Assembly: GCA_003009755.1 (NCBI GenBank)
Contig: PXUB01000007.1
Location: 46,941 to 60,427 of the forward strand
Length of the DNA: 13,487 nt
Reading direction: 5' to 3'
From: Thermoplasmatales archaeon SW_10_69_26
Lineage (GTDB): Archaea; Thermoplasmatota; SW-10-69-26
A program made the position numbers and the translations under genes. The notes under the pieces are model-generated. The model was given only the letters and a program-made list of their open reading frames with translations. It made no database searches and was not told the DNA's origin. Of the stretch, positions 1 through 13,487 are shown in pieces (the first letter of the stretch is position 1; each line of letters starts with the position of its first letter).

Positions 1-7
1 ACCTCGA

Positions 8-24
8 AATGCCCTCCGGGCATT
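8..24. repeat. Short perfect hairpin
   Basis: AATGCCC and GGGCATT form a perfect 7-bp inverted repeat around a 3-base TCC loop. A second, looser pairing (CTCGGC at 32-37 with GCCGAG at 59-64) follows. No gene was recognised in 1-171, so these may be the 3' end of a transcript coming from the left or a terminator-like structure for the minus-strand microprotein at 172-270. No tRNA or rRNA signature was seen on either strand. Confidence 0.35.
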
Positions 25-171
25 CCTTCGTCTCGGCTCCGCGCTTTCACCGCCTGAGGCCGAGCGAGAGCTTAACCCAAGCACAGCCGGCAGTCTAGGC
101 GTTTCATGTCTCGTCCTCCCAACAGCACCCTGGGAAGGCCGAGTCGACGGATAGGCCTTTCCCCGGGGGGC

Positions 172-270
172 TCAGCGTTCCTCCTCGTGCCACCACTCGT
201 CGACGAGGCCGCCCAGCGCCCCCAACAGGACACCGGCCCAGAACCACTCGTCGTCCGTGTCATCGCTCAC
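172..270 (-). CDS. 32-residue acidic single-pass membrane microprotein
   Basis: Starting at GTG, the frame reads an acidic N-terminus (SDDTDDEW), a hydrophobic run (FWAGVLLGALGGLV, about residues 9-22) and a charged tail (DEWWHEEER). That is the profile of a one-helix archaeal membrane microprotein. An in-frame TAG lies three codons upstream, so GTG is the only reasonable start; no good Shine-Dalgarno is visible, which suits a leaderless transcript. It is divergent from the lipoprotein gene at 396. Function is unknown. The call rests on composition and the acidic-hydrophobic-acidic layout, so a chance frame remains possible. Confidence 0.45.
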   Translation of the reverse strand: MSDDTDDEWFWAGVLLGALGGLVDEWWHEEER

Positions 271-331
271 GGATCCCTAGCCCTCGACCCGCCTCATGAA
301 ACGGTCCGCGAACGGTTGCGGGTGGCCTCGA

Positions 332-346
332 TCGGTGCGTTACCGA
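332..346. repeat. TCGGT-n5-ACCGA palindrome upstream of lipoprotein gene
   Basis: A 5-bp inverted repeat with 5-base spacer lies about 20 bases before the TATA-like box of the gene at 396, between divergent genes. A related sequence, CGGT-n3-ACCG, occurs at 8575-8589. It could be a regulator site, but the arms are short. Confidence 0.25.
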
Positions 347-366
347 CGGGCTGGGGAGAAGAACGG

Positions 367-373
367 TTTTCTA
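367..373 (+). promoter_or_regulatory. TATA-like box for lipoprotein gene
   Basis: TTTTCTA, preceded by the purine-rich GAAGAACGG that could serve as a BRE, is centred about 26 bases before the ATG at 396. With normal archaeal spacing, transcription would begin at or next to the start codon, giving a leaderless mRNA. Confidence 0.5.
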
Positions 374-395
374 CGAGCAACCCGACTCCCGTGCC

Positions 396-1415
396 ATGTT
401 GCGACGGGCAGGCGTGGTGTTGCTGGCGTTCGCCTTGGTCACGGCCGGCTGCGTCGGGACGCAGGCTCCCGAGGACGATAGCGAGGCCAGCGAGGAGGAA
501 CTGACCGCACAGAACGCCTCCCCGACGGCCCCACCAGCCGAGGGCGAGCGCGGGCTCGACGAACCGCCGACGCTTCGCCAGGGTGAATGGTGGACCGTCG
601 AGCTGCGAAGCGACGCCTTCAACGTGGAATCCGAGGCCACGATCGTCAACGCCGGCATGAAGGACGGCCGCTACATGATCGGCATGCCCGCCGACGACTA
701 CGCCGTGGAAGCCCTCATCCTGCACCTGCCGAGCATCGGTCCCGTCCAGCCGGACACGCTCGGCTACGAGAGCCACGACGTGCCCTTCGCGCCGGCCTCG
801 TTCCCGCTGCAAGAGGGCGAGACCTGGTCCACGGAGTGGTACACGGGCGAGCTCGAGGGCGAGGTCACCCAGGCCAACCCTGCGGAGGGGACGGCCGAGG
901 CCGAGCTCACCGGGGCCGAGAACGTCAACGTCACCTACGAGGCCGGGCTCGGCATCCCCACGTCGGTCGAGATCGACGGCTACGGCTCCTACGAGGTGAC
1001 CGACCACGGCTACGGCTTCGAGGGCGACGTCAAGGTGCCCTGGGAGCACGACATCGTGTTCCTCAACGGGCGCGTGGGCCCAGCCGCCGACACGAGCCTG
1101 CAGCCGGCGCCGCCCGTCGAGCAGATCCCCGTCGAGGGTGACTACGACGAGGCCGCGATCGCGCTGTTGATGGGCAACCTCGTCGTCGAGGGCCCGCCGG
1201 GCGTCTATCGCGTGTCCGCGGATGCGCCAAATGGCAACACCTACGAGGACACGTTCGTCGCGGAACCGACCGGCCCCCAGCTCAAGATCGTGCCCAGCGC
1301 CGTGCCCGACCCGGTCGGGACCTGGGACGCCGAGTACGAGGCCGGCGGGGCCGGCGTCGCCGCGATCGAGGGCATGGCCTACGAGGTCATCGAGCGCTCG
1401 CTCGGCGATGGATAG
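396..1415 (+). CDS. Secreted lipoprotein, unknown function
   Basis: The 339-residue product opens with a basic MLRR, a hydrophobic stretch and a lipobox (TAGC) whose Cys19 would carry the lipid anchor. An acidic, Ala/Pro-rich linker follows (about 20-58), then a soluble region rich in Tyr, Trp, Gly and acidic residues with a probable beta-sandwich character. The C-terminus (about 240-330) reads like a second small beta domain, with phrases such as GPPGVYRV and VGTWDAEYEA. I do not recognise the family. Expected location is the outer face of the membrane. A small hairpin (GGCCC-GCGA-GGGCC, 1415-1428) overlaps the stop codon. The start is supported by the TATA-like box and the signal sequence. 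It is the first of three exported proteins in a row on this strand. Confidence 0.85.
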   Translation: MLRRAGVVLLAFALVTAGCVGTQAPEDDSEASEEELTAQNASPTAPPAEGERGLDEPPTLRQGEWWTVELRSDAFNVESEATIVNAGMKDGRYMIGMPADDYAVEALILHLPSIGPVQPDTLGYESHDVPFAPASFPLQEGETWSTEWYTGELEGEVTQANPAEGTAEAELTGAENVNVTYEAGLGIPTSVEIDGYGSYEVTDHGYGFEGDVKVPWEHDIVFLNGRVGPAADTSLQPAPPVEQIPVEGDYDEAAIALLMGNLVVEGPPGVYRVSADAPNGNTYEDTFVAEPTGPQLKIVPSAVPDPVGTWDAEYEAGGAGVAAIEGMAYEVIERSLGDG

Positions 1416-1464
1416 GCCCGCGAGGGCCGCCGGAGGGATCGCCTTCGAAGATCGCTGAAGACCC

Positions 1465-1471
1465 CTTATCT
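1465..1471 (+). promoter_or_regulatory. TATA-like box for DUF4382 lipoprotein gene
   Basis: CTTATCT in an otherwise GC-rich gap is centred about 33 bases before the ATG at 1501, predicting a leader of only about 7 bases. It separates this gene transcriptionally from the lipoprotein upstream. Confidence 0.45.
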
Positions 1472-1500
1472 GCCCGGCGGCCGCATGGTTGGGATAGACC

Positions 1501-2604
1501 ATGAGCCCGAACCTGCGACACCGGAGTTGGAGCCTGATCGCGAGCCTGCTGCTCGTCACGGCCGGCCTGGCCGGCTGCGTGCAGGAGGCCGAAGCCTCGA
1601 CCGGCGAAGTCTACGTCAAGGACGACGTCACCGACGAAGCCGAGGCCGTCCACGTCGAGTTCACGAAGGCCGAGATCCTGCCGGCCGACAGCAACGAGTG
1701 GGTGACGGTGTACGAGGGCGACAAGGAGATCGAGCTGTTGTCGCTGTCGGACGCCGACGCCCGCGAACAGCTGGCGGACTTCGAGATCGAGCCCGGCGAG
1801 TACGACCGCCTGCGTATCCACGTCGCCAACGTGACCGTCGACCACGAGAACGGCACCTCGGAGGAGCTCGTCGTCCACGGCAACATGGTGACCGTGGCCG
1901 AAGACATCAGCTACGAGCCCGGCGAGGACGTCAGCGTGCTGCTGGACTTCGACCTCGACGAATCAATCAACACGACCCGCGGCGAGTACACGCCCGTCGT
2001 GGGCGACCTGCAGCGCTCGGACGTCGATCAGGACGAGGACGGCGAGGCCGACCTCGACGACACCGACGACGACGGTGACGACACGCCCGACCACGTCGAC
2101 GACGACCGCGACGGCGACGGCCAACCCGATCTCCCCGCTCAGGCTCAAAGCTACGACAAGCGCGGCCTGAAGGGCGTCTGCACCGCCTGGGAGAACAACG
2201 ACCAGGGCCGCGAGAACGGCACCGTGGAGGAGAACGCGACGGCCTTCCAGTGGTTGCAGAACCGCTCGGCCGAGGCCGGCCAGAGCGTGGACGTCTACTG
2301 CGAGGAGACCACCTCCCAGGGCGCCCCCGACGAGATCGGGATCACGAAGGACGAGCTCCCCGAGCGCGCCCAGCAGGCCCTCGGCGACCGCCACCTGGGC
2401 CCGCCGGAGGACCGTCGCGGCCACGGTGACGATCGCTCGCAGGACCGCGGCGACGGCGACCGCGAGGCCGACCGCGGCGGCGACCGCGACCGGCGCGATG
2501 GCAACCAGACCCGCAGCGACGAGCAGGAGGACCGACAGCAGAGCGAGGACGAGCAGCGAAGCGACGAGCAGGAGACCAACCGCAGCGCCGAGCAGCAACC
2601 CTAG
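1501..2604 (+). CDS. DUF4382-type lipoprotein with Asp-rich repeats and charged low-complexity tail
   Basis: The 367-residue product has a signal sequence ending in a lipobox (LAGC, Cys26). Residues about 35-170 match the DUF4382 pattern: GEVYVKDD, then AEAVHVEFTKAEI, a W-containing strand, an ELLSL turn, and LADFEIEPGEYDRLRIHV. Residues about 173-211 form DxDxDG-type repeats (DVDQDEDGEADL, DRDGDGQPDL) resembling thrombospondin type-3 calcium sites. A 220-295 segment has two cysteines (227, 267) that could pair outside the cell. From about residue 301 the protein is almost only Asp, Glu, Arg, Gln, Gly and Ser. Several N-glycosylation sequons (NVT, NGT, NTT) are present. Role is inferred to be a surface-anchored ion-binding or adhesion protein; DUF4382 has no settled function. 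Confidence 0.85.
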   Translation: MSPNLRHRSWSLIASLLLVTAGLAGCVQEAEASTGEVYVKDDVTDEAEAVHVEFTKAEILPADSNEWVTVYEGDKEIELLSLSDADAREQLADFEIEPGEYDRLRIHVANVTVDHENGTSEELVVHGNMVTVAEDISYEPGEDVSVLLDFDLDESINTTRGEYTPVVGDLQRSDVDQDEDGEADLDDTDDDGDDTPDHVDDDRDGDGQPDLPAQAQSYDKRGLKGVCTAWENNDQGRENGTVEENATAFQWLQNRSAEAGQSVDVYCEETTSQGAPDEIGITKDELPERAQQALGDRHLGPPEDRRGHGDDRSQDRGDGDREADRGGDRDRRDGNQTRSDEQEDRQQSEDEQRSDEQETNRSAEQQP

Positions 2605-2627
2605 GCCGGATCGGTGAGCCCCGAGCA

Positions 2628-2655
2628 GGCCCGCCGGCGAGATCGTCGGCGGGCC
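2628..2655 (+). terminator. Strong GC hairpin after the DUF4382 gene
   Basis: Arms GGCCCGCCGGCG and CGTCGGCGGGCC pair at 11 of 12 positions around the 4-base loop AGAT, 24 bases past the stop codon, and are followed by the pyrimidine run CTCCCCC. It is a good stem-loop, but archaeal termination relies mostly on U-tracts, so it may instead protect the 3' end or process the transcript. Confidence 0.45.
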
Positions 2656-2729
2656 CTCCCCCACCGCCCACGAAGCACAAGACCCACACGCCGCGACCGC
2701 ATCCCCCCGCCGACGCTCCCCTCACGATC

Positions 2730-3791
2730 ATGCCCTCCCCCACCCGACCTTCGCCCGCCCTCGCCCTCGTCCTGGCCCTCACCGTGGCCTTCGCACCAGC
2801 CCTGGTGCCCAGCTTGGCCACGTCCGCGCTGGCTCAGGAATCGGGCCCCGCCAACGGCGGCCCCGACAACGGCAGCCAGCGCGACGCCAACCGTTCCCAG
2901 GACCCCAACGGCAGCGACGACGGCGACCGCTCGGCCTCCGAGAGGCGCGGGACCGACGACGGCCAAGGCCACCGGTCCGACCGGGGCGCCGACGACCGCG
3001 GTCCCGACCAGGCCGGTCCGCCGGTCGAGATCGAGGATCGACGCGGCGGCTTCGCCACGCGCGCCGAGCCCGGTTCGCCCCGCCCCGAGGTGGCCGTCGA
3101 CGCCGCCAACGCTTCCGCCAGCGTCCAACGCGGGGACGTCCGCCCGCTCGACGTGCACCTCGACGAGGTGCTGGCCTTCGAGGACGGCGACGGCGACGGT
3201 GCCTACGACATCGGCGAGCGCGTGCTCGACCGGCAGTCCCTCCCCGAGGCGCCCGCCGAGATCCTCGTCACGGCGAACGAGACGCGCACGGCCGTCTACG
3301 AGCTCGGCGAGGAAGCGAGCCTCGAGCTCGTGTTCGACGTCTCCGCCGCCCACGGCGACGAGGTCGGCGCCAAGTTCGACGTCGAGGTTCACAACTACAC
3401 CTTCGCCGACGGCGAGGACGTCCACACCGCGCTCGGCAGCCGCATCCAGGTCGACGGCGGCCTCGAGCGCGTCGAACGCCAGGGACGCCCGGCCGTCGTC
3501 GGCGAGGCCGGCGACGACGTGGCCTACCTGTCCTGGGTTCAGAACGCGACCGTGGACGGTACCGACCACCGCGTCGGCTCCAGCGTCCTCGTCGACGCCG
3601 AGGAGCGCGACTCGGCCGTCGTCTACTGGGCCTACCCGCAAGGCGAGGAGATCGTGCACGATCCCGAGCTGGGCGTGAGGGACGCGGTCCGCGAGTTGGC
3701 CGGCAACCCGGGGTCCTTCGCCTTCGGCCTCGCGGTGACCACCACGATCCTGTTCGGCGGGTACGCGGTGCGGGCGAGGTGGAACCGGTGA
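2730..3791 (+). CDS. Secreted acidic protein with C-terminal membrane anchor
   Basis: The 353-residue protein has a Sec signal peptide (hydrophobic about 10-34, likely cleavage after ALA at 35). A disordered Gly/Asn/Asp/Ser linker runs to about 105, followed by a folded acidic domain containing EDGDGDGAYDIGERVL, an EF-hand- or dockerin-like acidic turn. Later segments (VFDVSAAHGDEVGAKFDVEV, YLSWVQNATV, VVYWAYPQG) look like beta strands. A single transmembrane helix (about 328-347) and the short basic tail RARWNR end the protein, so it would be anchored with the bulk outside. I do not recognise the family. Its 3' end overlaps the next gene by 13 bases, indicating co-transcription with the DUF7521-like gene and perhaps the regulator after it. 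Confidence 0.8.
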   Translation: MPSPTRPSPALALVLALTVAFAPALVPSLATSALAQESGPANGGPDNGSQRDANRSQDPNGSDDGDRSASERRGTDDGQGHRSDRGADDRGPDQAGPPVEIEDRRGGFATRAEPGSPRPEVAVDAANASASVQRGDVRPLDVHLDEVLAFEDGDGDGAYDIGERVLDRQSLPEAPAEILVTANETRTAVYELGEEASLELVFDVSAAHGDEVGAKFDVEVHNYTFADGEDVHTALGSRIQVDGGLERVERQGRPAVVGEAGDDVAYLSWVQNATVDGTDHRVGSSVLVDAEERDSAVVYWAYPQGEEIVHDPELGVRDAVRELAGNPGSFAFGLAVTTTILFGGYAVRARWNR

Positions 3792-4051
3792 GCCTCGTGC
3801 TCAACCTCGCCGTCGCCGCCTTCGCGTTGACCGCGATCGCCATGACCGGGCTCGCCGGGGTCGGCTGGCGCCGCTCCGGCCAGGCCCGCATGGGTGGCCT
3901 GACCGCCGGGTTCGGGCTCTTCGCCGTCGCGGGCTTGGTCACCGCGTGGTGGCTGTTCGCCCGCGAGGATCTGGAAACGCTGTTGACCGTGCACACCGCC
4001 GTCACCGCCGCCGGCCTGCTGACGATCTACCTGGCCGCCGTGAAACGTTGA
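3779..4051 (+). CDS. DUF7521-like small membrane protein
   Basis: Starting at a GTG inside the previous gene, the 90-residue product has three hydrophobic helices (about 4-24, 37-58 and 66-86). The helix 1-2 link contains a small basic motif (GWRRSGQARMG) and helix 2 contains GLTAGFGLFAVAGL. This matches the layout of haloarchaeal DUF7521 proteins, whose genes commonly sit beside winged-helix regulators, as here. The 13-base overlap suggests translational coupling. Function is unknown; a membrane partner or signal-relay component for the neighbouring exported protein or regulator is inference. The family call comes from pattern recall. Confidence 0.7.
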   Translation: MEPVSLVLNLAVAAFALTAIAMTGLAGVGWRRSGQARMGGLTAGFGLFAVAGLVTAWWLFAREDLETLLTVHTAVTAAGLLTIYLAAVKR

Positions 4052-4184
4052 CCTCTCGCCGGCCGGAGACCACCGAGGAGAGATCCAAGCGTGGAACCGA
4101 AGCGGTCAAGCGGGAGAGCGCCGTCGCTGGCCTCGCGATCCCGGCCGCAGGCGCCCGCTTGAGGCCAACGCGCCGTGAACCGCC

Positions 4185-4823
4185 ATGTCCACCGCCGATG
4201 CATCGACGACGGTCCGCTCCTCTCGCCCGTCGGCCGCAGCCGAGGGCCCGCGCCTCATCGAGCTCGCGATCCTGGCGATGGCTGCCGGCGACGATGCCAC
4301 GACGCGTCGCCGCGTGTACGAGTGCGTCAACGAGCACCCCGGGCTGCACCAGCGGGAGATCGCCCGCCAGCTCGACCTCGACGCCAGCCACGCCGAGTAC
4401 CACCTCTACCACCTGGCGAAGGCCGGCATCCTGCGCACCGAGGAAACCGACGGCTACAAGCGCTACTTCGTCGCGCTGGACCCCAACGAGGCGGTGCCCG
4501 AGGGCGCCGTCCAGCCCGAGGATCGCCCGTGGCTGGGCCTGTTCCGTCAAAAGCGCCCGCTGGAGATCGTGGCCCACCTGTTGCAGGAGGGCCCCAGCCA
4601 GATGGGCCCGATCGCCGACAGCATGGACATCGCGAAGAGCACGTTGAGCTACCACGTCGACAAGCTCGAAGACGAGGACGTCGTCGAGCGCGTGCGGGAC
4701 GGCAACCAGCGCTACCTGCAGCTCACCGATCGCGAGCGCACGATCCGCCTGCTCGTCCAGCACGAGCCGCCCGACGATCTCGTCGCCGGGTTCCAGGACC
4801 TGTGGGAGGACGTCGGGTTCTGA
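4185..4823 (+). CDS. Tandem winged-helix transcriptional regulator
   Basis: The 212-residue protein holds two winged-helix domains. The first (about 41-97) has VNEHPGLHQREIARQLDLD leading into a recognition helix (ASHAEYHLYHLAKAGIL) and a wing (TDGYKRYF). The second (about 123-182) has LLQEGPSQMGPIADSMDI, the recognition helix KSTLSYHVDKLEDEDVV and the wing RDGNQRYLQL. Both follow the ArsR/MarR-like pattern usual in euryarchaeal regulators with doubled domains. No cysteine cluster or ligand pocket is obvious, so the signal is unknown. It lies 133 bases after the DUF7521-like gene on the same strand and is the obvious candidate for controlling the envelope cluster. The start ATG at 4185 leaves a short disordered N-terminus; no clear TATA box was found. 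Confidence 0.85.
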   Translation: MSTADASTTVRSSRPSAAAEGPRLIELAILAMAAGDDATTRRRVYECVNEHPGLHQREIARQLDLDASHAEYHLYHLAKAGILRTEETDGYKRYFVALDPNEAVPEGAVQPEDRPWLGLFRQKRPLEIVAHLLQEGPSQMGPIADSMDIAKSTLSYHVDKLEDEDVVERVRDGNQRYLQLTDRERTIRLLVQHEPPDDLVAGFQDLWEDVGF

Positions 4824-4836
4824 CGGGCGAGAGGGA

Positions 4837-5001
4837 TCAGGCGTCGTCGGCCTCGTTCTCGTCGTCCTCTCGGTGCTCCCGCAGGATGCGCTTGGCCCTC
4901 CGCCGCATCTCTGGATCAGCCGTCGTGGTGAGACGGCCGGGTCGGAGGAAGCCCTCGGGGAGCTTCCGGCGGCCCTCGTCGTCCGACTCCGTCATCGCCA
5001 T
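4837..5001 (-). CDS. 54-residue charged protein of unknown function
   Basis: The frame opens MAMTESDDEG, continues with a Pro/Gly-rich middle (KLPEGFLRPGRL) and a basic helix (PEMRRRAKRILREHRE), and ends in an acidic tail. A GGAGGG Shine-Dalgarno-like sequence lies about 9 bases before the ATG, and the gene starts 20 bases after the stop of the membrane-protein gene, so the two probably share a transcript. TTATAG just upstream coincides with that gene's last codons and stop, and could also act as a TATA box. The basic helix flanked by acidic tails suggests a small nucleic-acid or protein binder, but no family is recognised. Confidence 0.6.
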   Translation of the reverse strand: MAMTESDDEGRRKLPEGFLRPGRLTTTADPEMRRRAKRILREHREDDENEADDA

Positions 5002-5021
5002 CACTATTGCCCTCCCTGGAC

Positions 5022-5555
5022 CTATAAGGTTGTCGCCGCGACGAGGAAGAAGCCGAGCCCGGCGACCAGAACGAGCAACGAGGCCCGGAACCGTCGAGCT
5101 GTGCGTTCCAGCAGTTCTTCCTCTCTGGCGGCCGAGATTCGGTACGTCCGGACCAGCTCCGCCTTGAGCTCGTCCCCGGTGACGTCGAAATCGAGAGCTC
5201 CCGCGAGCGTTTCGGCGTCGACGCCCCCGGCCGTCCCCCGTTTCAGGTAGGCCGAAACCCCGATCACGGTCGAGGCGACCATCGAGGCGAAGCCTGCGAT
5301 CATGGGGAGACGGACGAGCGGCGACCCTCCCAACGACTCAGCCTCTTGGAAGAGAGAAACGATCGGTACGAACAGCCCCAGCATCAGGACGTTGAACCGG
5401 ACGATGCCCTGGATCCGGTCGTCCATCTCCGAGATCGCCTCGGAGAGAGCATCGACCCTGTGCTTCGCCTCTTCGTAGAGGAGCTGCACCGCATCCTCTG
5501 TCGGTCGGTGTCCTCCTTGACCCACGTCGTCTCTTGTCGCCGCTGTTCCCTTCAT
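5022..5555 (-). CDS. Three-helix membrane protein with coiled-coil N-terminus
   Basis: From the ATG at 5555 the product has 177 residues. A cytosolic helical segment (about 20-50, LLYEEAKHRVDALSEAISEM) precedes transmembrane helices at about 52-69 and 82-104. A 50-residue charged loop follows (AYLKRGTAGGVDAETLAGAL, then helical EELLERTARRF), and a third helix at about 157-176 ends the protein. The frame stays open upstream to 5741, but that part is low-complexity Arg/Gly and overlaps the DinB-like gene, so the later ATG is preferred. The layout resembles uncharacterised haloarchaeal membrane proteins and, more distantly, small effector-type membrane domains near defence enzymes. That resemblance is weak and no partner enzyme is visible. 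Confidence 0.65.
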   Translation of the reverse strand: MKGTAATRDDVGQGGHRPTEDAVQLLYEEAKHRVDALSEAISEMDDRIQGIVRFNVLMLGLFVPIVSLFQEAESLGGSPLVRLPMIAGFASMVASTVIGVSAYLKRGTAGGVDAETLAGALDFDVTGDELKAELVRTYRISAAREEELLERTARRFRASLLVLVAGLGFFLVAATTL

Positions 5556-5617
5556 CTTTCTCCGGGGACGACGCTGACCTCGGCGGCTGTACGCGGCCAA
5601 CCCGCCCTCTGACCTGG

Positions 5618-6116
5618 TCAGGGGTGGGCCGCCGGCTCGGCCTCGTCGGTCGTCAGCTCTGTCCCGTACCGGGGCCAGTCGACCGGCGGGGGTTCCACGC
5701 TCTGCGACCAGAGGATCGAGAGCAGCTCGCCGCGGTGCCACTGTTCGTGGGTGAAGATCGTGAACAGCGCCTCCTCGGGCGTGAGGGCCTCGCGTTCGAA
5801 GCCCTCGATCTCGACATCGAGGTGGCGAAGCCGCTGCATCTCCTCAGGATCGAGGTCGTCGACGACCTCGTGCGTGTAGGCGCGGACCGCCTGGAGGTGG
5901 TCGATCACGGGCTCGGTCCAGCGGTCCTTCGAGGGGCGATCCCACGCGAAGCTCTCCCCGGCGATCAACCGCGCCCAGCTCTTCTCGACGTTGCCGACGT
6001 GCGTCGGCGGCCAGCGGGGTGTAGAACGAGCACTTGTAGTCGCGCGTCAACAGCTCTGGGTCCATCGAGCGCAGCTCGGGGAACCACCGATCGTTGAGCT
6101 GATCCGAGAAGACCAA
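5618..6116 (-). pseudogene. DinB-family protein, frameshifted
   Basis: Two minus-strand frames make one DinB-like four-helix-bundle protein of about 165 residues, the usual family length. The N-terminal part (6116 to about 6003: VFSDQLNDRWFPELRSM, then SFYTPLAAD) continues in the other frame as HVGNVEKSWARLIAGES from 6001. That second frame carries the conserved late motif THEQWHRGELL. DinB proteins bind a metal with three histidines. Here the first (HVGN) falls exactly at the break and the other two are in HEQWH. One extra base near 6002 would explain the shift; it could be a true mutation or a sequencing error. The start is uncertain: TTG at 6116 is the only candidate near the expected N-terminus, although the frame stays open further upstream. 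Family members act in thiol-dependent metalloenzyme or stress roles. Confidence 0.65.
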
Positions 6117-6204
6117 CAGCCGCTTGGCCGAGAGGGACAGGGCTCGGGAGGCGCGCTGGCGAGCATCGAGCTTCGCCCCCGAACCGACGGCGGCCGCCGG
6201 GCGC

Positions 6205-7116
6205 TCAGCGCCGGGCTCGGACGATCGCGACGTGGGGCGCCCCGACCCGGCTGTCGGCGTCGACGAGGCCCGCGCCGGCGAGCGCGTCGGTCAACCGCTC
6301 GTGGAGGTCGGCGGCCAGCTCGGCCTCGCCGGCCTCCCGCTTGCGCACGGTCGCCGCCAGCACCGCCGCCAGCCAGCTGGCCGTCAACCGGTCGCTCTCG
6401 CGGGCCGGAGGCAGCTGCACGGGCGAGCCCACGACGCCCTCGGCCAGAAGCTCGCCCAGGTCGGCGACCCCAGCGGCGGCCAGCGTCTCCCGGTAGCCGG
6501 ATCGTCGTCGCCAGGCGGTGACGTCGGGGAACCGGACCGTCCGGCGGGGGCGCTTGGCGGGTGGCCACTCGCCCCAGGGGCGGGTGACCTCGGCCGAGGC
6601 GAAGGAAAGCTGCCAGGCCTCGGGGTCGGGGCGGTGGAAGACGAGCGAACCGCCGAGCGAGGGCAAGCGGGCGTCGGCCAGGATCCGCCTGGGCGGGGTC
6701 ACGTTGCCGGCCGGCGCGATCGCGGGCCGCCGGTGCAGCAGGTCCCAGTGGTAGACGTTGAAGCGAGCGCGCGCCAGCGGCACGTCGCCCGCCACCGCCG
6801 GCAACGGGCCCGGGCGCCGGCGAGCCTGCAGCAGGCACACGCGGAGGTCGGGCGGGTCCGTGGACGTGTATGTGACGACCAGCAGGTCGGCCAGCTGGCT
6901 GCGTCGCTCGTCCGCAGGCAGCTCGTCGTGGGGCCTGAAGTCGACGAAGGCGCGCTGGCCGCGATGCGTCTCGGCGGCGAGGTCGCCGGCTTCCCCGATC
7001 GCGGGCAGGGCGGCCATCCAGGCCTCGAGCAGCTCGTCCTCGTGGAGGCCGGGCTCCCCGGCGGTGGCTTCGCTGAAGGCGTCGGCGAGGGGCTGACCCG
7101 GCGGTGTCTCGCTCAC
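6205..7116 (-). CDS. Uncharacterised protein with possible PD-(D/E)XK-like core
   Basis: The 303-residue product starts at GTG. Residues about 52-100 contain FVDFRPHDELPADERRSQ, then the hydrophobic strand LADLLVVTYT with Asp77, and a second strand, RVCLLQARRR. An acidic residue before one strand followed by Q-x-K/R on the next resembles the D-(E/Q)xK site of PD-(D/E)XK nuclease folds, here with Arg in place of Lys. A further stretch (FNVYHWDLLHRRP, 119-131) and PSLGGSLVF look conserved. No signal peptide or membrane helix is visible. It is divergent from the secreted protein at 7245 and lies upstream of the DinB-like gene on the same strand. Neither a family name nor activity can be assigned. 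Confidence 0.7.
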   Translation of the reverse strand: MSETPPGQPLADAFSEATAGEPGLHEDELLEAWMAALPAIGEAGDLAAETHRGQRAFVDFRPHDELPADERRSQLADLLVVTYTSTDPPDLRVCLLQARRRPGPLPAVAGDVPLARARFNVYHWDLLHRRPAIAPAGNVTPPRRILADARLPSLGGSLVFHRPDPEAWQLSFASAEVTRPWGEWPPAKRPRRTVRFPDVTAWRRRSGYRETLAAAGVADLGELLAEGVVGSPVQLPPARESDRLTASWLAAVLAATVRKREAGEAELAADLHERLTDALAGAGLVDADSRVGAPHVAIVRARR

Positions 7117-7244
7117 GGTGTGGCGCGCGGATGGGCGAGGGCCCTCATGCTTCCGGCGGCCGATGGATCGGTCGACGACGCTCCCACAGCTCGTTCAAGG
7201 GAGCTCACGCGAAGCCCTTTGCCGGCCCCCGGCGATCCCCGACC

Positions 7245-8543
7245 ATGGCGAGAGGGAGAGGCAAAGCGGCTGCCGGTAGGGCGACGAGCGGAGCATGGTG
7301 GACGGTTCTGGCGGTCGCCGCGTTGGTGGTGACCGCTGGGATCGCCGGACAGGTGGGGGCGATCAACCCCACCGACGACGACGCTGGGTCCGGCCGCGAC
7401 GCGGGCGATCAGCCGGCGACCGCCGTCCCGATCGAGCCGGGCACCCACGAGGGTCGTGTGACGGAGACGGTCGACACGCGCGACCACTACAGCTTCGCGG
7501 CCGACGAAGGGGACGTGGTCGTCGTCACCGTGCCCGATGGCGGCGCGCGGCTGTGGATCGGCCTGGTCGGTCCCGACGGCGAGGAGCACGCCTACGGGGC
7601 CGACTTGGAGGGCGTCTGGCTTCCGATCCCGGAGGCCGGGACGTGGACGGTGCTCGTCGAGCTGACGGGCGCCAGCAGCGATCTGCCGGCCGCTGCCGTC
7701 GACTACACCATCGAGCTCGAGCGCTCGCAGGACTACTACGTCCACGAGCGCACCGTCGCGGATGGCTGGTACACCGCCGAGGCCGCCGTCGACGAGCCGG
7801 GTCGGTTGATGGGCTACGTGCGCGGGCAGTCTCCGCAGGACCCCGGGGAAGCCTACGGGAACTTCGGCGCGGTCGCCTCCTGGAAGGCCAAGCCCGAGGG
7901 CGGCCGAATCTTGTCCTGGAGTGCGCACGCGTACGGGCACGGCGCCACCTCCGAGGACTCTCCGTTCGCGATCGCCTCCGAGATCCTCCCCGGCGACGAC
8001 GGGGCCCAGGCCGCCTCCTTCAGCCCCTGGAGCGAGGGGCAGATCCTGGACAGCTATGCCGAGGCCCAGATGCGCTTGACGGCGCTCGAGGCGCCCAGCG
8101 AGCACGGGCTCCGGGTGGCGATCGCCTCGACCTCGCCGCTGGAGGTTCGCGAGGCTACCGGGTCGGAGGTGGTCCACTGGACGACCAGCGACAACGAGGA
8201 GGAGACGGTCCTGCAGACCGGCGGCGTCGTCGCCACGGAGGCCGCCAACCTCACCGTCCCGACCGACCACGGCCTGCGCGGGGCTTTCTACACCTACGAC
8301 GCAGGCGGCGAGATCCACACGCCCGACAGCGACTGCCACGAAGCTGGAAGTGGCGAGCTGTTCGCCGACCCGCAAGCCGGATCCTGGGAGTTCCGCCTGA
8401 ACCCGGTGCAGGACGTCGGCTACACCGAGCACGTCTACCTCGTCGCGGCCGACATCCCCCAGCTGGGCACCTTCGACTGGGGCGGCAACCCTCCGCTGGC
8501 CACCGTGAACGGTCGCCCTTGCGGCCAGGCGGCGGGGAGCTGA
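7245..8543 (+). CDS. Secreted protein with PPC-like domain
   Basis: From the ATG at 7245 the product has 432 residues. A basic N-terminus (MARGRGK) and a hydrophobic stretch (about 19-38) act as a signal peptide or anchor. The region about 48-155 (DAGDQPATAVPIEPGTHEG, then DTRDHYSFAADEGDVVVV and LWIGLVGPDGEEH) has the layout of the bacterial pre-peptidase C-terminal beta-sandwich domain. The remaining 280 residues are acidic and beta-rich, with two cysteines near EIHTPDSDC and NGRPCG that could form a disulfide. No protease triad was recognised, so the protein is probably a binding or structural exoprotein. The open frame extends to 7104, but the signal sequence fits the later ATG and the upstream part reads like non-coding sequence. 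It is the last host-like gene before the element. Confidence 0.8.
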   Translation: MARGRGKAAAGRATSGAWWTVLAVAALVVTAGIAGQVGAINPTDDDAGSGRDAGDQPATAVPIEPGTHEGRVTETVDTRDHYSFAADEGDVVVVTVPDGGARLWIGLVGPDGEEHAYGADLEGVWLPIPEAGTWTVLVELTGASSDLPAAAVDYTIELERSQDYYVHERTVADGWYTAEAAVDEPGRLMGYVRGQSPQDPGEAYGNFGAVASWKAKPEGGRILSWSAHAYGHGATSEDSPFAIASEILPGDDGAQAASFSPWSEGQILDSYAEAQMRLTALEAPSEHGLRVAIASTSPLEVREATGSEVVHWTTSDNEEETVLQTGGVVATEAANLTVPTDHGLRGAFYTYDAGGEIHTPDSDCHEAGSGELFADPQAGSWEFRLNPVQDVGYTEHVYLVAADIPQLGTFDWGGNPPLATVNGRPCGQAAGS

Positions 8544-8589: not shown

Positions 8590-8639
8590 CGAAGCCGCCC
8601 TCACGATGAGGTTTTCGCTCGGTCCCCACGGCCTGCGGG

Positions 8640-10034: not shown

Positions 10035-10313
10035 TTAGTCGCTTGGGTCACGGACGAGGATGGCCTCCTCGCCCTCGAGGCCCTTCGCGATGTAGAGCTG
10101 CGGCGGCCCGGTCCCGCCCCAGGGCGTGGCCGTGTGCTCGTAGGCGACGTCCGCGGTCACGGTGACCTGGTCCTCGTCGACGTCGACGTGGATCGTGTAG
10201 TCGCCGTCGGGCACGAGCACGTGGATCGGGTCGCCCTGCCAGTCGGTGGGAGCGTACACGCGCCGGCTGGCGGGCACGGTGCGTCTCTCGACTGCGCTGC
10301 CGGTGACGGTCAC
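10035..10313 (-). CDS. AbrB/DUF2080-like small protein, copy 1
   Basis: The 92-residue product begins at a GTG that forms GTGA with the previous stop. RRTVPASRRVYAPTDWQ followed by GDPIHVLV follows the AbrB-like hairpin pattern (V-Y-x-P-x-x-W-x-G-x-x-V). An acidic beta-rich middle (DGDYTIHVDVDEDQVTVT) and a C-terminal hairpin (LYIAKGLEGEEAILV) follow. The latter aligns with DVYVGRAFEDDIVVL of the downstream protein. The two look like diverged tandem duplicates. Dimeric DNA binding or a toxin-antitoxin-like antitoxin are options; no toxin is visible nearby. Confidence 0.65.
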   Translation of the reverse strand: MTVTGSAVERRTVPASRRVYAPTDWQGDPIHVLVPDGDYTIHVDVDEDQVTVTADVAYEHTATPWGGTGPPQLYIAKGLEGEEAILVRDPSD

Positions 10314-10405
10314 GCGCCTCTCTCCTCGAGGCGTTGGTCGATCTGCTCGAACACGGGCCGCAGCTCGCTCGCCGGGCTTCCTCGGCGCCCGCTGCTATCC
10401 GGCAT
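10310..10405 (-). CDS. 31-residue helical microprotein
   Basis: The frame reads MPDSSGRRGSPASELRPVF then EQIDQRLEERGA, a disordered basic N-terminus followed by a short amphipathic helix. It starts inside the zinc-finger gene (11-base overlap) and its TGA forms GTGA with the next start. Coupled overlaps on both sides are the main evidence that it is a gene; function is unknown. Confidence 0.5.
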   Translation of the reverse strand: MPDSSGRRGSPASELRPVFEQIDQRLEERGA

Positions 10406-10547
10406 CGTCCCCGACCCCCGCGAGGAGGCTGTCCAGGTGCTTCTCGCGGCACGCGCGGCAGAGGTCGCGTTCGCGCTGGCCGATCGTGATCGAGGCGGTC
10501 GGCGTGTTGCCGCAGGCTTCGCAGACGAGTTTCTCCTGCTCAGGCAT
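10395..10547 (-). CDS. 50-residue zinc-finger protein
   Basis: Two CxxC pairs (Cys9/Cys12 in VCEACGN and Cys30/Cys33 in DLCRACR) separated by 17 residues make a four-cysteine zinc knuckle, followed by a helix (REKHLDSLLAG). This layout is common in small virus and phage proteins of unknown role, often presumed to bind nucleic acid or protein. The ATG lies within the end of the 26-residue gene (8-base overlap), so translation is probably coupled. Confidence 0.7.
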   Translation of the reverse strand: MPEQEKLVCEACGNTPTASITIGQRERDLCRACREKHLDSLLAGVGDDAG

Positions 10548-11813: not shown

Positions 11814-12739
11814 GAGGACCCACCCCCGAGTGTGGCCTTCTCCTTGAGACCCTGGAGCTTCTCGATCATCGCACCCGCCTCGTCCATCGTCCTCGGCTTG
11901 CCGCGCATCGCGTTGCTGTCGAATGGGTTCGCGTCATCCTCCATCTCGCCGGCGCTCGTCGGGACGCCCGCGTTGCGGCACTCCTCCCGCAGGTCTTGGA
12001 TGAACTCGAGCTGGGGCCCACTGGGGTCCTGCCCGGTCGACGACTGGGACTGCTGGGTGCCCTGCCCGCTGCCGGGATCGGCGTCGACCTCGACGTCCCC
12101 GCTCTCGAGCAACAGCATCTTCGACAGGGCGTAGCGGAGGAGCTGGGATTCGAGCGCGTAGTGGTGCTTGTCGCCGGCGTTCTCGTTCTCGCCGACGACG
12201 CGGCGGCCCATGCGGCTGTCGCCGTCGGTCAGGTAGACCTCCATGACGGCCGTCACGCACCAACGCTGGTTCCCGCTGCCCGTGGTGCCCGACGGCTGCT
12301 TATAGGTGTCGACGATGCTGCTGTGCACCCAGACGTCCGCCTCGGCCAAGGGTTCGGCGACGGCGCCGTTCACGTCGTCGTAGGTTGAGTACTCGTGGTC
12401 GATGTGGCTGTTGTACCCGCTCTTCGGGATCGTGCCGATGTTCTGGCGGGCCTCGCACACCTTCTCGATGAGCGCAGGGCTGGGGTCGCCGAGCGGCGTG
12501 CTGCCTTGGACGCGGAACCGCCAGGTCTCCTCGCCCTCGGGGCCCTGGTCCTTGCCCATGTCGAAGGGGCTGCTGGGCTTGGTCTCGGTGACCTGGACCT
12601 CGCGCACCGTGCGGCCGTCGACGGCTTGCAGGATGTCGTCGATGACCATCTTGGCCTGGCTCTGTGTGAGGCTCTCGCCTGCGTCGTCGATGTCGTCGGT
12701 CTCCCCGTCCGCGGGCGTGGCTTCTTCGGTCTCCGTCAC
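11810..12739 (-). CDS. ERF-family single-strand annealing protein
   Basis: Starting at the GTG that overlaps the preceding stop, the product has 309 residues. The ERF-like core spans about 91-212: KVCEARQNIGTIPKSGYN, HEYSTYDDVNGAVAEPLAEA, a beta strand around WCVTAVMEVYLTDG, then GENENAGDKHHYALESQ and LLRYALSKMLLLES, matching the ERF motif of a DK followed by a helical A-x-R-YAL segment. An acidic linker (213-245) and a helical C-terminus follow. An ATG at 12787 in frame would overlap the upstream gene by 52 bases, so GTG is preferred. Such proteins pair homologous single strands during virus replication and repair. The exonuclease partner lies immediately downstream. Confidence 0.82.
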   Translation of the reverse strand: MTETEEATPADGETDDIDDAGESLTQSQAKMVIDDILQAVDGRTVREVQVTETKPSSPFDMGKDQGPEGEETWRFRVQGSTPLGDPSPALIEKVCEARQNIGTIPKSGYNSHIDHEYSTYDDVNGAVAEPLAEADVWVHSSIVDTYKQPSGTTGSGNQRWCVTAVMEVYLTDGDSRMGRRVVGENENAGDKHHYALESQLLRYALSKMLLLESGDVEVDADPGSGQGTQQSQSSTGQDPSGPQLEFIQDLREECRNAGVPTSAGEMEDDANPFDSNAMRGKPRTMDEAGAMIEKLQGLKEKATLGGGSS

Positions 12740-12855
12740 GGGTCCACCCCCTGGCGCCAGCGAGGGTCGCTGCGGTCGAACAGCCACACGGTCTCGACCT
12801 GGAGCGTGGTCGGCGTGTCTTCCTCGAGCTCGCCGATCGCGTGCTGGCGTGCCAT
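12736..12855 (-). CDS. 39-residue protein of unknown function
   Basis: The frame opens MARQHAIGELEEDTPTTLQ and continues with VETVWLFDRSDPRWRQGVDP. Its ATG shares one base with the upstream stop, and its TGA forms GTGA with the annealing-protein start. Clean coupling on both sides is the main support. No motif is recognised. Confidence 0.6.
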   Translation of the reverse strand: MARQHAIGELEEDTPTTLQVETVWLFDRSDPRWRQGVDP

Positions 12856-13058
12856 CAGGCTCCCTCCTCGATGGGGATGAGGACGTGGATCAGGTCGTCC
12901 CAGAACGCCAGGTCGACCCCCTCTTCCCGCATGGTGCCCGTCTCGCCGAGCACGGCAAGCACGGCCTCGTGCTCGCCGCGGGCGATTTGGAGCTCGACGG
13001 CGAGCTCGTCGTGCCCGTGGTAGGGGCTCGGTTCGATGGAGCATCCGATGCTCGGCAT
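12855..13058 (-). CDS. 67-residue acidic protein of unknown function
   Basis: The product begins MPSIGCSIEPSPYHGHDE and continues with an amphipathic region (LQIARGEHEAVLAVLGE) and a hydrophobic end (FWDDLIHVLIPIEEGA). No domain is recognised; there is no membrane helix or metal motif beyond isolated Cys/His. The ATG shares one base with the stop of the first operon gene, indicating coupled translation. Confidence 0.65.
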   Translation of the reverse strand: MPSIGCSIEPSPYHGHDELAVELQIARGEHEAVLAVLGETGTMREEGVDLAFWDDLIHVLIPIEEGA

Positions 13059-13297
13059 CAGGCGGCCCCCTGCTGGTAGTCGATGACCTCGAGGTTAACG
13101 CGCTCGTCGCCGCGCCCGGGTGTCTCGTCCCAGGCGAGGACGGCGGGGCAGTCGTCGCACGTGGCCCGGACGGAGATGACGTCGGGCTCGAGCTGCTCGC
13201 GGTCGATCACGCGGCAGGACTCGTGCAGGCACGTGTTCGGCTCGGGCGGCTTGAGCCGGCGTCGTTCGGCTCGTCGTAGGTTCGCGTCGGCGTACAT
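13058..13297 (-). CDS. 79-residue zinc-ribbon-like protein, first gene of operon
   Basis: A basic N-terminal helix (NLRRAERRRLKPPEP) precedes CLHESC (Cys23, His25, Cys28) and CDDC (Cys47, Cys50), a plausible zinc ribbon, then an acidic end. GGTGA lies about 7 bases before the ATG and the operator-promoter region just beyond. Similar small zinc proteins open early operons in many archaeal viruses, with unknown function. The basic helix plus metal site suggests nucleic-acid binding. Confidence 0.7.
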   Translation of the reverse strand: MYADANLRRAERRRLKPPEPNTCLHESCRVIDREQLEPDVISVRATCDDCPAVLAWDETPGRGDERVNLEVIDYQQGAA

Positions 13298-13309
13298 CGG
13301 GTGTTCACC

Positions 13310-13326
13310 AGCGCCCCGGTGGCGCT
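13310..13326 (-). repeat. Leader hairpin before the operon
   Basis: AGCGCC and GGCGCT form a 6-bp inverted repeat around a 5-base loop, 13 bases before the first start codon and inside the predicted short leader. It touches the first operator half-site. It may affect translation or be chance in GC-rich sequence. Confidence 0.3.
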
Positions 13327-13363
13327 ACACTCTTGTAGCGACCGCCGCTACAAAAGTGTTGCG
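13323..13363. promoter_or_regulatory. Tandem operator: two 18-bp palindromes
   Basis: Four alternating half-sites are visible: CGCTACA (13323-13329), TGTAGCG (13334-13340), CGCTACA (13346-13352) and TGTTGCG (13357-13363, one mismatch). Each pair is an 18-bp palindrome with a 4-base gap (CTCT, AAAG). The two palindromes are 5 bases apart, 23 bp centre to centre. The second covers the TATA-like box of the leftward operon and the first lies about where transcription should begin, so a dimeric repressor bound here would block initiation. The repressor is not in this window. Confidence 0.75.
13349..13355 (-). promoter_or_regulatory. TATA-like box for the minus-strand operon
   Basis: On the minus strand TTTTGTA stands out in GC-rich sequence, about 55 bases before the ATG at 13297. 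Standard spacing places transcription near 13328, leaving a roughly 30-base leader with GGTGA near its end. Confidence 0.5.
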
Positions 13364-13411
13364 TTGGCGGACGAGAGTCACCCTGCGAGGAGGAGAGGCT
13401 GCCTTCGTGAT

Positions 13412-13487
13412 TTACTCGTCGATGTTCCGTTCCGGATCGGCGTAGAAGGCGTCGAACGAGAGGTCATATCCCCGCCAAAGGACGATC
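13412..13487 (-). CDS. Partial gene, C-terminus only
   Basis: The minus frame ends in LWRGYDLSFDAFYADPERN then IDE and TAA, with amino-acid use like the other element genes. The body lies beyond the right edge, so no function can be given. It is upstream of, and separated by 114 bases from, the operator-controlled operon, on the same strand. Confidence 0.5.
   Translation of the reverse strand, partial: IVLWRGYDLSFDAFYADPERNIDE

Follow-up and report, generated by a model that had tools for sequence, protein, structure and literature searches.

A 41-bp sequence near the right end of the window, composed of two consecutive palindromes, is probably a bipartite operator at the promoter of the early/recombination operon of an archaeal provirus, on which a pair of dimers would exclude the transcription machinery. 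The operator reading is favoured by the rarity of the pair, by its uniqueness in the genome and by its position on top of the best-scoring predicted promoter; it is weakened by the spacing of 23 bp, which does not divide evenly by 10.5, and by the ability of the 41 bp to fold as one strong hairpin. The simplest role of the site is to control this operon alone, which includes the case of auto-repression. Lysogeny control by the palindrome pair is possible, and local control is favoured because the assembled parts hold no second site.

Two consecutive palindromes that are unique in the genome

The window, by which we mean the whole 13,487-nucleotide stretch that was analyzed, is the right end of a contig, C7, of an archaeal genome. 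At 13323-13363 it reads CGCTACA CTCT TGTAGCG ACCGC CGCTACA AAAG TGTTGCG, which resolves into two features:

13323..13340, no strand: left palindrome, CGCTACA-CTCT-TGTAGCG, with perfect arms; spans about -14 to +4, counted from the predicted start
13346..13363, no strand: right palindrome, CGCTACA-AAAG-TGTTGCG, with a single mismatch; spans about -37 to -20 and overlies BRE and TATA

Both palindromes are 18 bp long, each with a 4-bp gap, and their centres lie 23 bp apart, so that direct reading of the sequence bears out the equal gaps and the spacing given in a preliminary description of this DNA. Its wording of four alternating CGCTACA/TGTAGCG half-sites was slightly generous: three of the four are exact, and the fourth, TGTTGCG, has one mismatch. 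The half-site centres fall at 13326, 13337, 13349 and 13360, in steps of 11, 12 and 11 bp, and matched half-sites are thus about one helical turn apart. The dimeric arrangement proposed earlier fits this geometry, with two palindromes for two dimers.

A single palindrome of this kind is not rare, since 0.41 matches with up to three mismatches are expected per window, and the two palindromes are the only such matches in the window. For the pair, we counted loose pairs, in which arms of 7 enclose a gap of 0 to 8, a single mismatch is allowed overall and no more than one base distinguishes the half-sites. Second-order Markov sequence contained 46 of these per 12 Mb (0.05 per window), and pairs with identical left half-sites occurred twice per 15 Mb (0.0018 per window); two other loose pairs, both on contig C22, were present in 196 kb of real sequence from the same genome. 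The palindrome pair is far beyond chance expectation, and the earlier statement that chance is unlikely holds for the pair, at about 0.002 such pairs per window in simulation.

Throughout the 2.8-Mb genome these are also the only two sites with 0-1 mismatches. Sites with up to three mismatches are fewer than those of a reversed-pattern control, and the weaker ones therefore look like chance. Further copies of the motif, for which the preliminary description had proposed a search of the rest of the element, did not appear in the 0-1-mismatch scan of the assembled genome, and no second operator copy was found there or in the assembled provirus parts of C7, C22 and C39.

The palindrome pair covers the predicted promoter and start site

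We trained a BRE/TATA promoter model on 78 host-gene upstream regions from which provirus genes were excluded; the training set kept the left end of contig C39, afterwards recognised as provirus-like. The host consensus, C-G-N-A-A-S-S-C-T-T-A-T, starts mainly 36-38 bp before start codons, and this consensus and distance are the BRE/TATA signature of mostly leaderless transcripts. Upstream of the leftward operon described below, three features were placed:

13350..13363, minus strand: predicted BRE/TATA element CGCAACACTTTTGT, 10.1 bits in the host-trained promoter model
13324..13328, minus strand: predicted transcription start region, from the promoter-to-start distance usual in the host
13305..13309, minus strand: GGTGA, Shine-Dalgarno-like, 8-12 nt before the first-gene ATG at 13297, read directly

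CGCAACACTTTTGT is the top promoter of the operon upstream region, the runner-up scoring 5.8 bits. A score of 10.1 bits has a background frequency of about 1e-4 (roughly 1 in 10,000 positions) and ranks first among those of the scored provirus-like upstream regions of C22, C39 and C7, and the derived consensus CGNAANNCTTNT matches once in the window, at 13350-13363. The predicted start falls near 13326, where the left palindrome ends, and the predicted BRE/TATA falls within the right palindrome; the inverted-repeat sites therefore overlap promoter elements, the promoter being a model prediction and not a mapped one. The preliminary description had put the palindromes on a TATA-like box and a start at 13328, and the host-trained model agrees with it to within a few bases for both promoter and start. 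A sigma-70 scan returned no site, as expected for an archaeon.

On the minus strand the half-site with the mismatch reads CGCAACA and falls on the host BRE (CGNAA). Its departure from CGCTACA may be explained by promoter constraint, because the same bases must serve as BRE.

Since each arm is itself palindromic, the 41 bp can also be read as a single long inverted repeat with 18-bp arms and a 5-nt loop. One alternative is that this hairpin acts as RNA or as a cruciform, as a processing signal or as a terminator of the upstream gene, and that the sequence does not hold paired operators. The RNA fold (-26.4 kcal/mol, z -5.2) and a position that follows the 3′ end of a gene on the same strand would agree with such a role, but a hairpin does not require palindromic arms, the two 4-bp gaps are complementary at only three of four positions, a terminator-like T-run is absent, and the predicted start leaves nearly none of the hairpin in the operon mRNA. 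We consider this alternative improbable.

A separate small hairpin, AGCGCC-ACCGG-GGCGCT, occupies 13310-13326, where the operon mRNA is predicted to begin, ahead of GGTGA.

The operon encodes recombination proteins and faces a serine recombinase

The ten-gene operon of the preliminary description was recovered, as ten ORFs run leftward behind the predicted promoter, with ends that mostly overlap:

13058..13297, minus strand: gene 1, 79 aa, Cys-rich (zinc-ribbon-like), no family
12855..13058, minus strand: gene 2, 67 aa, weak PHROG match, function unknown
12736..12855, minus strand: gene 3, 39 aa
11810..12739, minus strand: gene 4, ERF-family single-strand annealing protein, 309 aa
10620..11813, minus strand: gene 5, PD-(D/E)XK exonuclease-like, 397 aa
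10540..10620, minus strand: gene 6, 26-aa ORF whose start overlaps the gene 5 stop, read by eye
10395..10547, minus strand: gene 7, 50 aa, CxxC
10310..10405, minus strand: gene 8, 31-aa ORF
10035..10313, minus strand: gene 9, 92 aa
9703..10008, minus strand: gene 10, 101 aa
8827..9711, plus strand: serine recombinase, resolvase and Recombinase domains, integrase-like, convergent with the operon

Judged by this gene content, the ten ORFs and the facing serine recombinase are the putative early/recombination module of an archaeal provirus. That the element is archaeal, as first described, agrees with the BRE/TATA promoters of the host, with a TFB gene read on C22 and with the host MCM gene on C39.

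The contig ends in a repeat shared with a contig bearing viral late genes

The window closes on one further feature:

13389..13487, no strand: 99-bp contig-end sequence, identical to the C22 end in the same orientation; an assembly branch

It contains the 3′ end of a minus-strand gene of unknown identity (...RGYDLSFDAFYADPERNIDE*). Such shared 99-bp ends are found at many contig ends of the genome, and the sequence is therefore a repeat that the assembler failed to cross; the contig breaks at 13487 inside it, and the joining piece is absent from the assembly.

On C22, a rightward virus cluster occupies roughly 51 to 81 kb. It opens with RuvC-like, ParB-like and PCNA-like genes, followed by putative late genes for terminase, portal, capsid and tape measure, assigned by reading and gene order and not by profile, and for an S74-type tail fibre, assigned by Pfam, whose last codons fall within the shared 99 bp. 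The integrase and early genes are thus on C7 and tailed-virus late genes on C22, with a common 99-bp end, and the two contigs may come from a single provirus, as its ends on either side of a repeat-flanked piece, or from two different ones. The shared sequence at 13389-13487 may itself mark a repeat-flanked or rearranging segment.

A search for att cores between C22 and C7 yielded, besides short words, a single match of 18 bp, to a sequence found repeatedly on C22, and synteny around the host MCM gave no pairing of the provirus ends. The sequence around CCTCATCGTGAGG is present at 8596-8618, between chromosomal genes, and at 50359 and 50682 of C22, and resembles a dispersed repeat of intergenic DNA. 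At its left end (1-8500), next to the host MCM, C39 is provirus-like and encodes a C5 cytosine methylase, a PAPS-reductase-like protein and small Cys-rich proteins; both ends of this contig carry a common 99-bp sequence that begins a gene MSNDDLP...

The proximity of the assembly branch, 25 bp away, and the serine recombinase encoded by the element raise the alternative that the palindromes are recombination-associated, either as accessory sites for that enzyme or as part of a rearrangement at the junction from 13389. We regard this as very improbable, since C22, the other branch, lacks such palindromes beside the shared 99 bp, many contigs of the genome end in 99-bp shared ends, and the recombinase gene is 3.6 kb distant.

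The virus cluster of C22 also encodes, at 54157-56067, a 636-aa ParB-type protein with ParB_N and HTH_ParB domains and a long C-terminal part, and the palindromes could accordingly be sites for a ParB-like or other architectural protein, with a role in partition and only a secondary one in transcription control. ParB parS and KorB sites are contiguous palindromes of 13-16 bp, unlike the half-sites here, which are parted by 4 bp. ParB-class proteins bind palindromes and some of them, such as KorB, repress (PMC11790492), but the site here sits exactly over BRE/TATA and the start, and that C22 and C7 are one virus is itself only a possibility. A site of this kind therefore seems improbable to us, at the level of the hairpin.

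Relatives and the search for a regulator

Queries with ERF, terminase and nuclease recovered no homologous operon from IMG/VR, from GTDB contigs (searched with ERF only), from phage records (searched with ERF and terminase) or from up to 97 relatives; the ERF matches were distant ones only, about 30% identical and from phages of Bacillus, Paenibacillus and Enterococcus. We also scanned for the paired motif itself, as CGCTACA-N4-TGTNGCG-N(2-10)-CGCNACA-N4-TGTNGCG. IMG/VR contained no match, and the GTDB contigs contained only one other, in Mycolicibacterium moriokaense (L137, 1876-1920), where two perfect copies with 9 bp between them are intergenic, 28 bp before a TetR-family gene that is divergent from a YceI-family gene. 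The M. moriokaense pair is likely the operator of its TetR-family gene. By analogy, and not by homology, this shows that a paired motif of such a type can occur at regulator promoters. Three viral-contig matches to the half-pattern were set aside, as their context differs: two of them represent a single stretch that seems to be coding, and the third is in an AT-rich phage.

No convincing DNA-binding regulator gene was seen in the assembled parts checked, and a TetR_N (PF00440) profile search of the 95%-complete genome gave no match over the cut-off. The product of operon gene 1 is not predicted as HTH (weak structure model, pLDDT 60), and a 90-aa protein of C22 has weak HARE-HTH similarity (model pLDDT 65, no significant fold match). 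C7 ends at a repeat shared with C22, and the repressor gene may be located in the missing piece beyond 13487.

These results bear on the lysogeny-type switch that the preliminary description had proposed, in which the site would be the operator of a CI/Rep-like repressor encoded next to 13487 and cooperative dimers would silence the provirus. Such a switch would suit the temperate-type gene content (serine recombinase, ERF and exonuclease), the lambda-like centre spacing and the archaeal precedents of phiH RepR, phiCh1 Rep and F55. Set against it are the lack of a repressor gene in the assembled parts and of a second operator at any other provirus promoter examined, and the different repeat, CGTTACGCGTT-CGTTACGCGTA-ACG, upstream of the rightward cluster of C22. 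With no homologous operon found either, the proposal gained no support, and we hold it to be possible but doubtful. A more specific version, in which the operator is the main point of lysogeny control for an archaeal tailed-virus lineage without detectable relatives in the collections searched, and the repressor lies in the possibly rearranging segment flanked by the 99-bp repeat, is unlikely.

The C22 repeat consists of 11-bp direct repeats CGTTACGCGTT CGTTACGCGTA ACG at 52357-52381, from -45 to -19 of the first gene of the rightward cluster; it is unique in the genome and could be a second, different operator.

Proposed mechanism and comparison with known systems

For the bipartite operator we propose that a homodimeric regulator, which could be winged-helix, HTH, RHH or TetR-like, would bind each palindrome, and that two dimers would sit side by side on both. 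The bound dimers would occlude BRE/TATA and the start and so exclude TBP/TFB and RNA polymerase, and the ERF and exonuclease genes would be expressed only once the protein is removed, titrated or out-competed. As a purely local operator the site would be unremarkable, and it is most likely a common type of switch, here in a virus lineage that has not been studied. To our knowledge, few archaeal-virus repressor-operator systems have been characterised. The paired palindrome on a predicted BRE/TATA is a ready probe for the regulator of such a lineage, and it offers a test case for the exclusion of TBP/TFB by dimers.

At the OL/OR regions of lambda, dimers bind paired sites that overlie a recombination-operon (exo/bet-like) promoter, with a centre spacing of about 23-24 bp. 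The paired sites at a recombination-operon promoter and the similar centre spacing are shared here, but the promoter is archaeal, no cI or cro was seen, and there is neither a third site nor a second operator region among those found. The pair in M. moriokaense has the same half-sites, the 4-bp gap and two copies, but is bacterial, lies in an unrelated context and has 9 bp between its palindromes, and the archaeon has no TetR over the cut-off.

Among archaeal viruses, the tailed-virus examples considered here are haloarchaeal: RepR of phiH and Rep of phiCh1 are repressors of head-tailed viruses that block a lytic promoter (PMC4284463, PMC6471424). The phiH repressor gene is back-to-back with its target, whereas none is seen beside the C7 operon. 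The winged-helix protein ORF80/Stf76 of Sulfolobus plasmids and pSSVx binds palindromes with half-site centres 11 bp apart, at two sites in one promoter (PMC4027180). The C7 pair resembles it in the 11-bp half-site spacing and in having two sites per promoter; it differs in that the ORF80/Stf76 sites are TTAA-N7-TTAA, lie 60 bp apart and autoregulate the regulator gene.

F55 of SSV1 (Sulfolobus spindle-shaped virus 1), an RHH regulator, represses through two sites per early promoter that overlap BRE and the transcription start (PMC5569661). The F55 sites are tandem direct repeats of ATAGATAG, unlike the inverted CGCTACA/TGTAGCG half-sites here; no F55-like gene was found here, nor are ATAGATAG-type tandem repeats present at this site. 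The two systems are nevertheless alike in placing their sites over BRE and the transcription start at an early promoter, here a predicted one, of a temperate archaeal virus.
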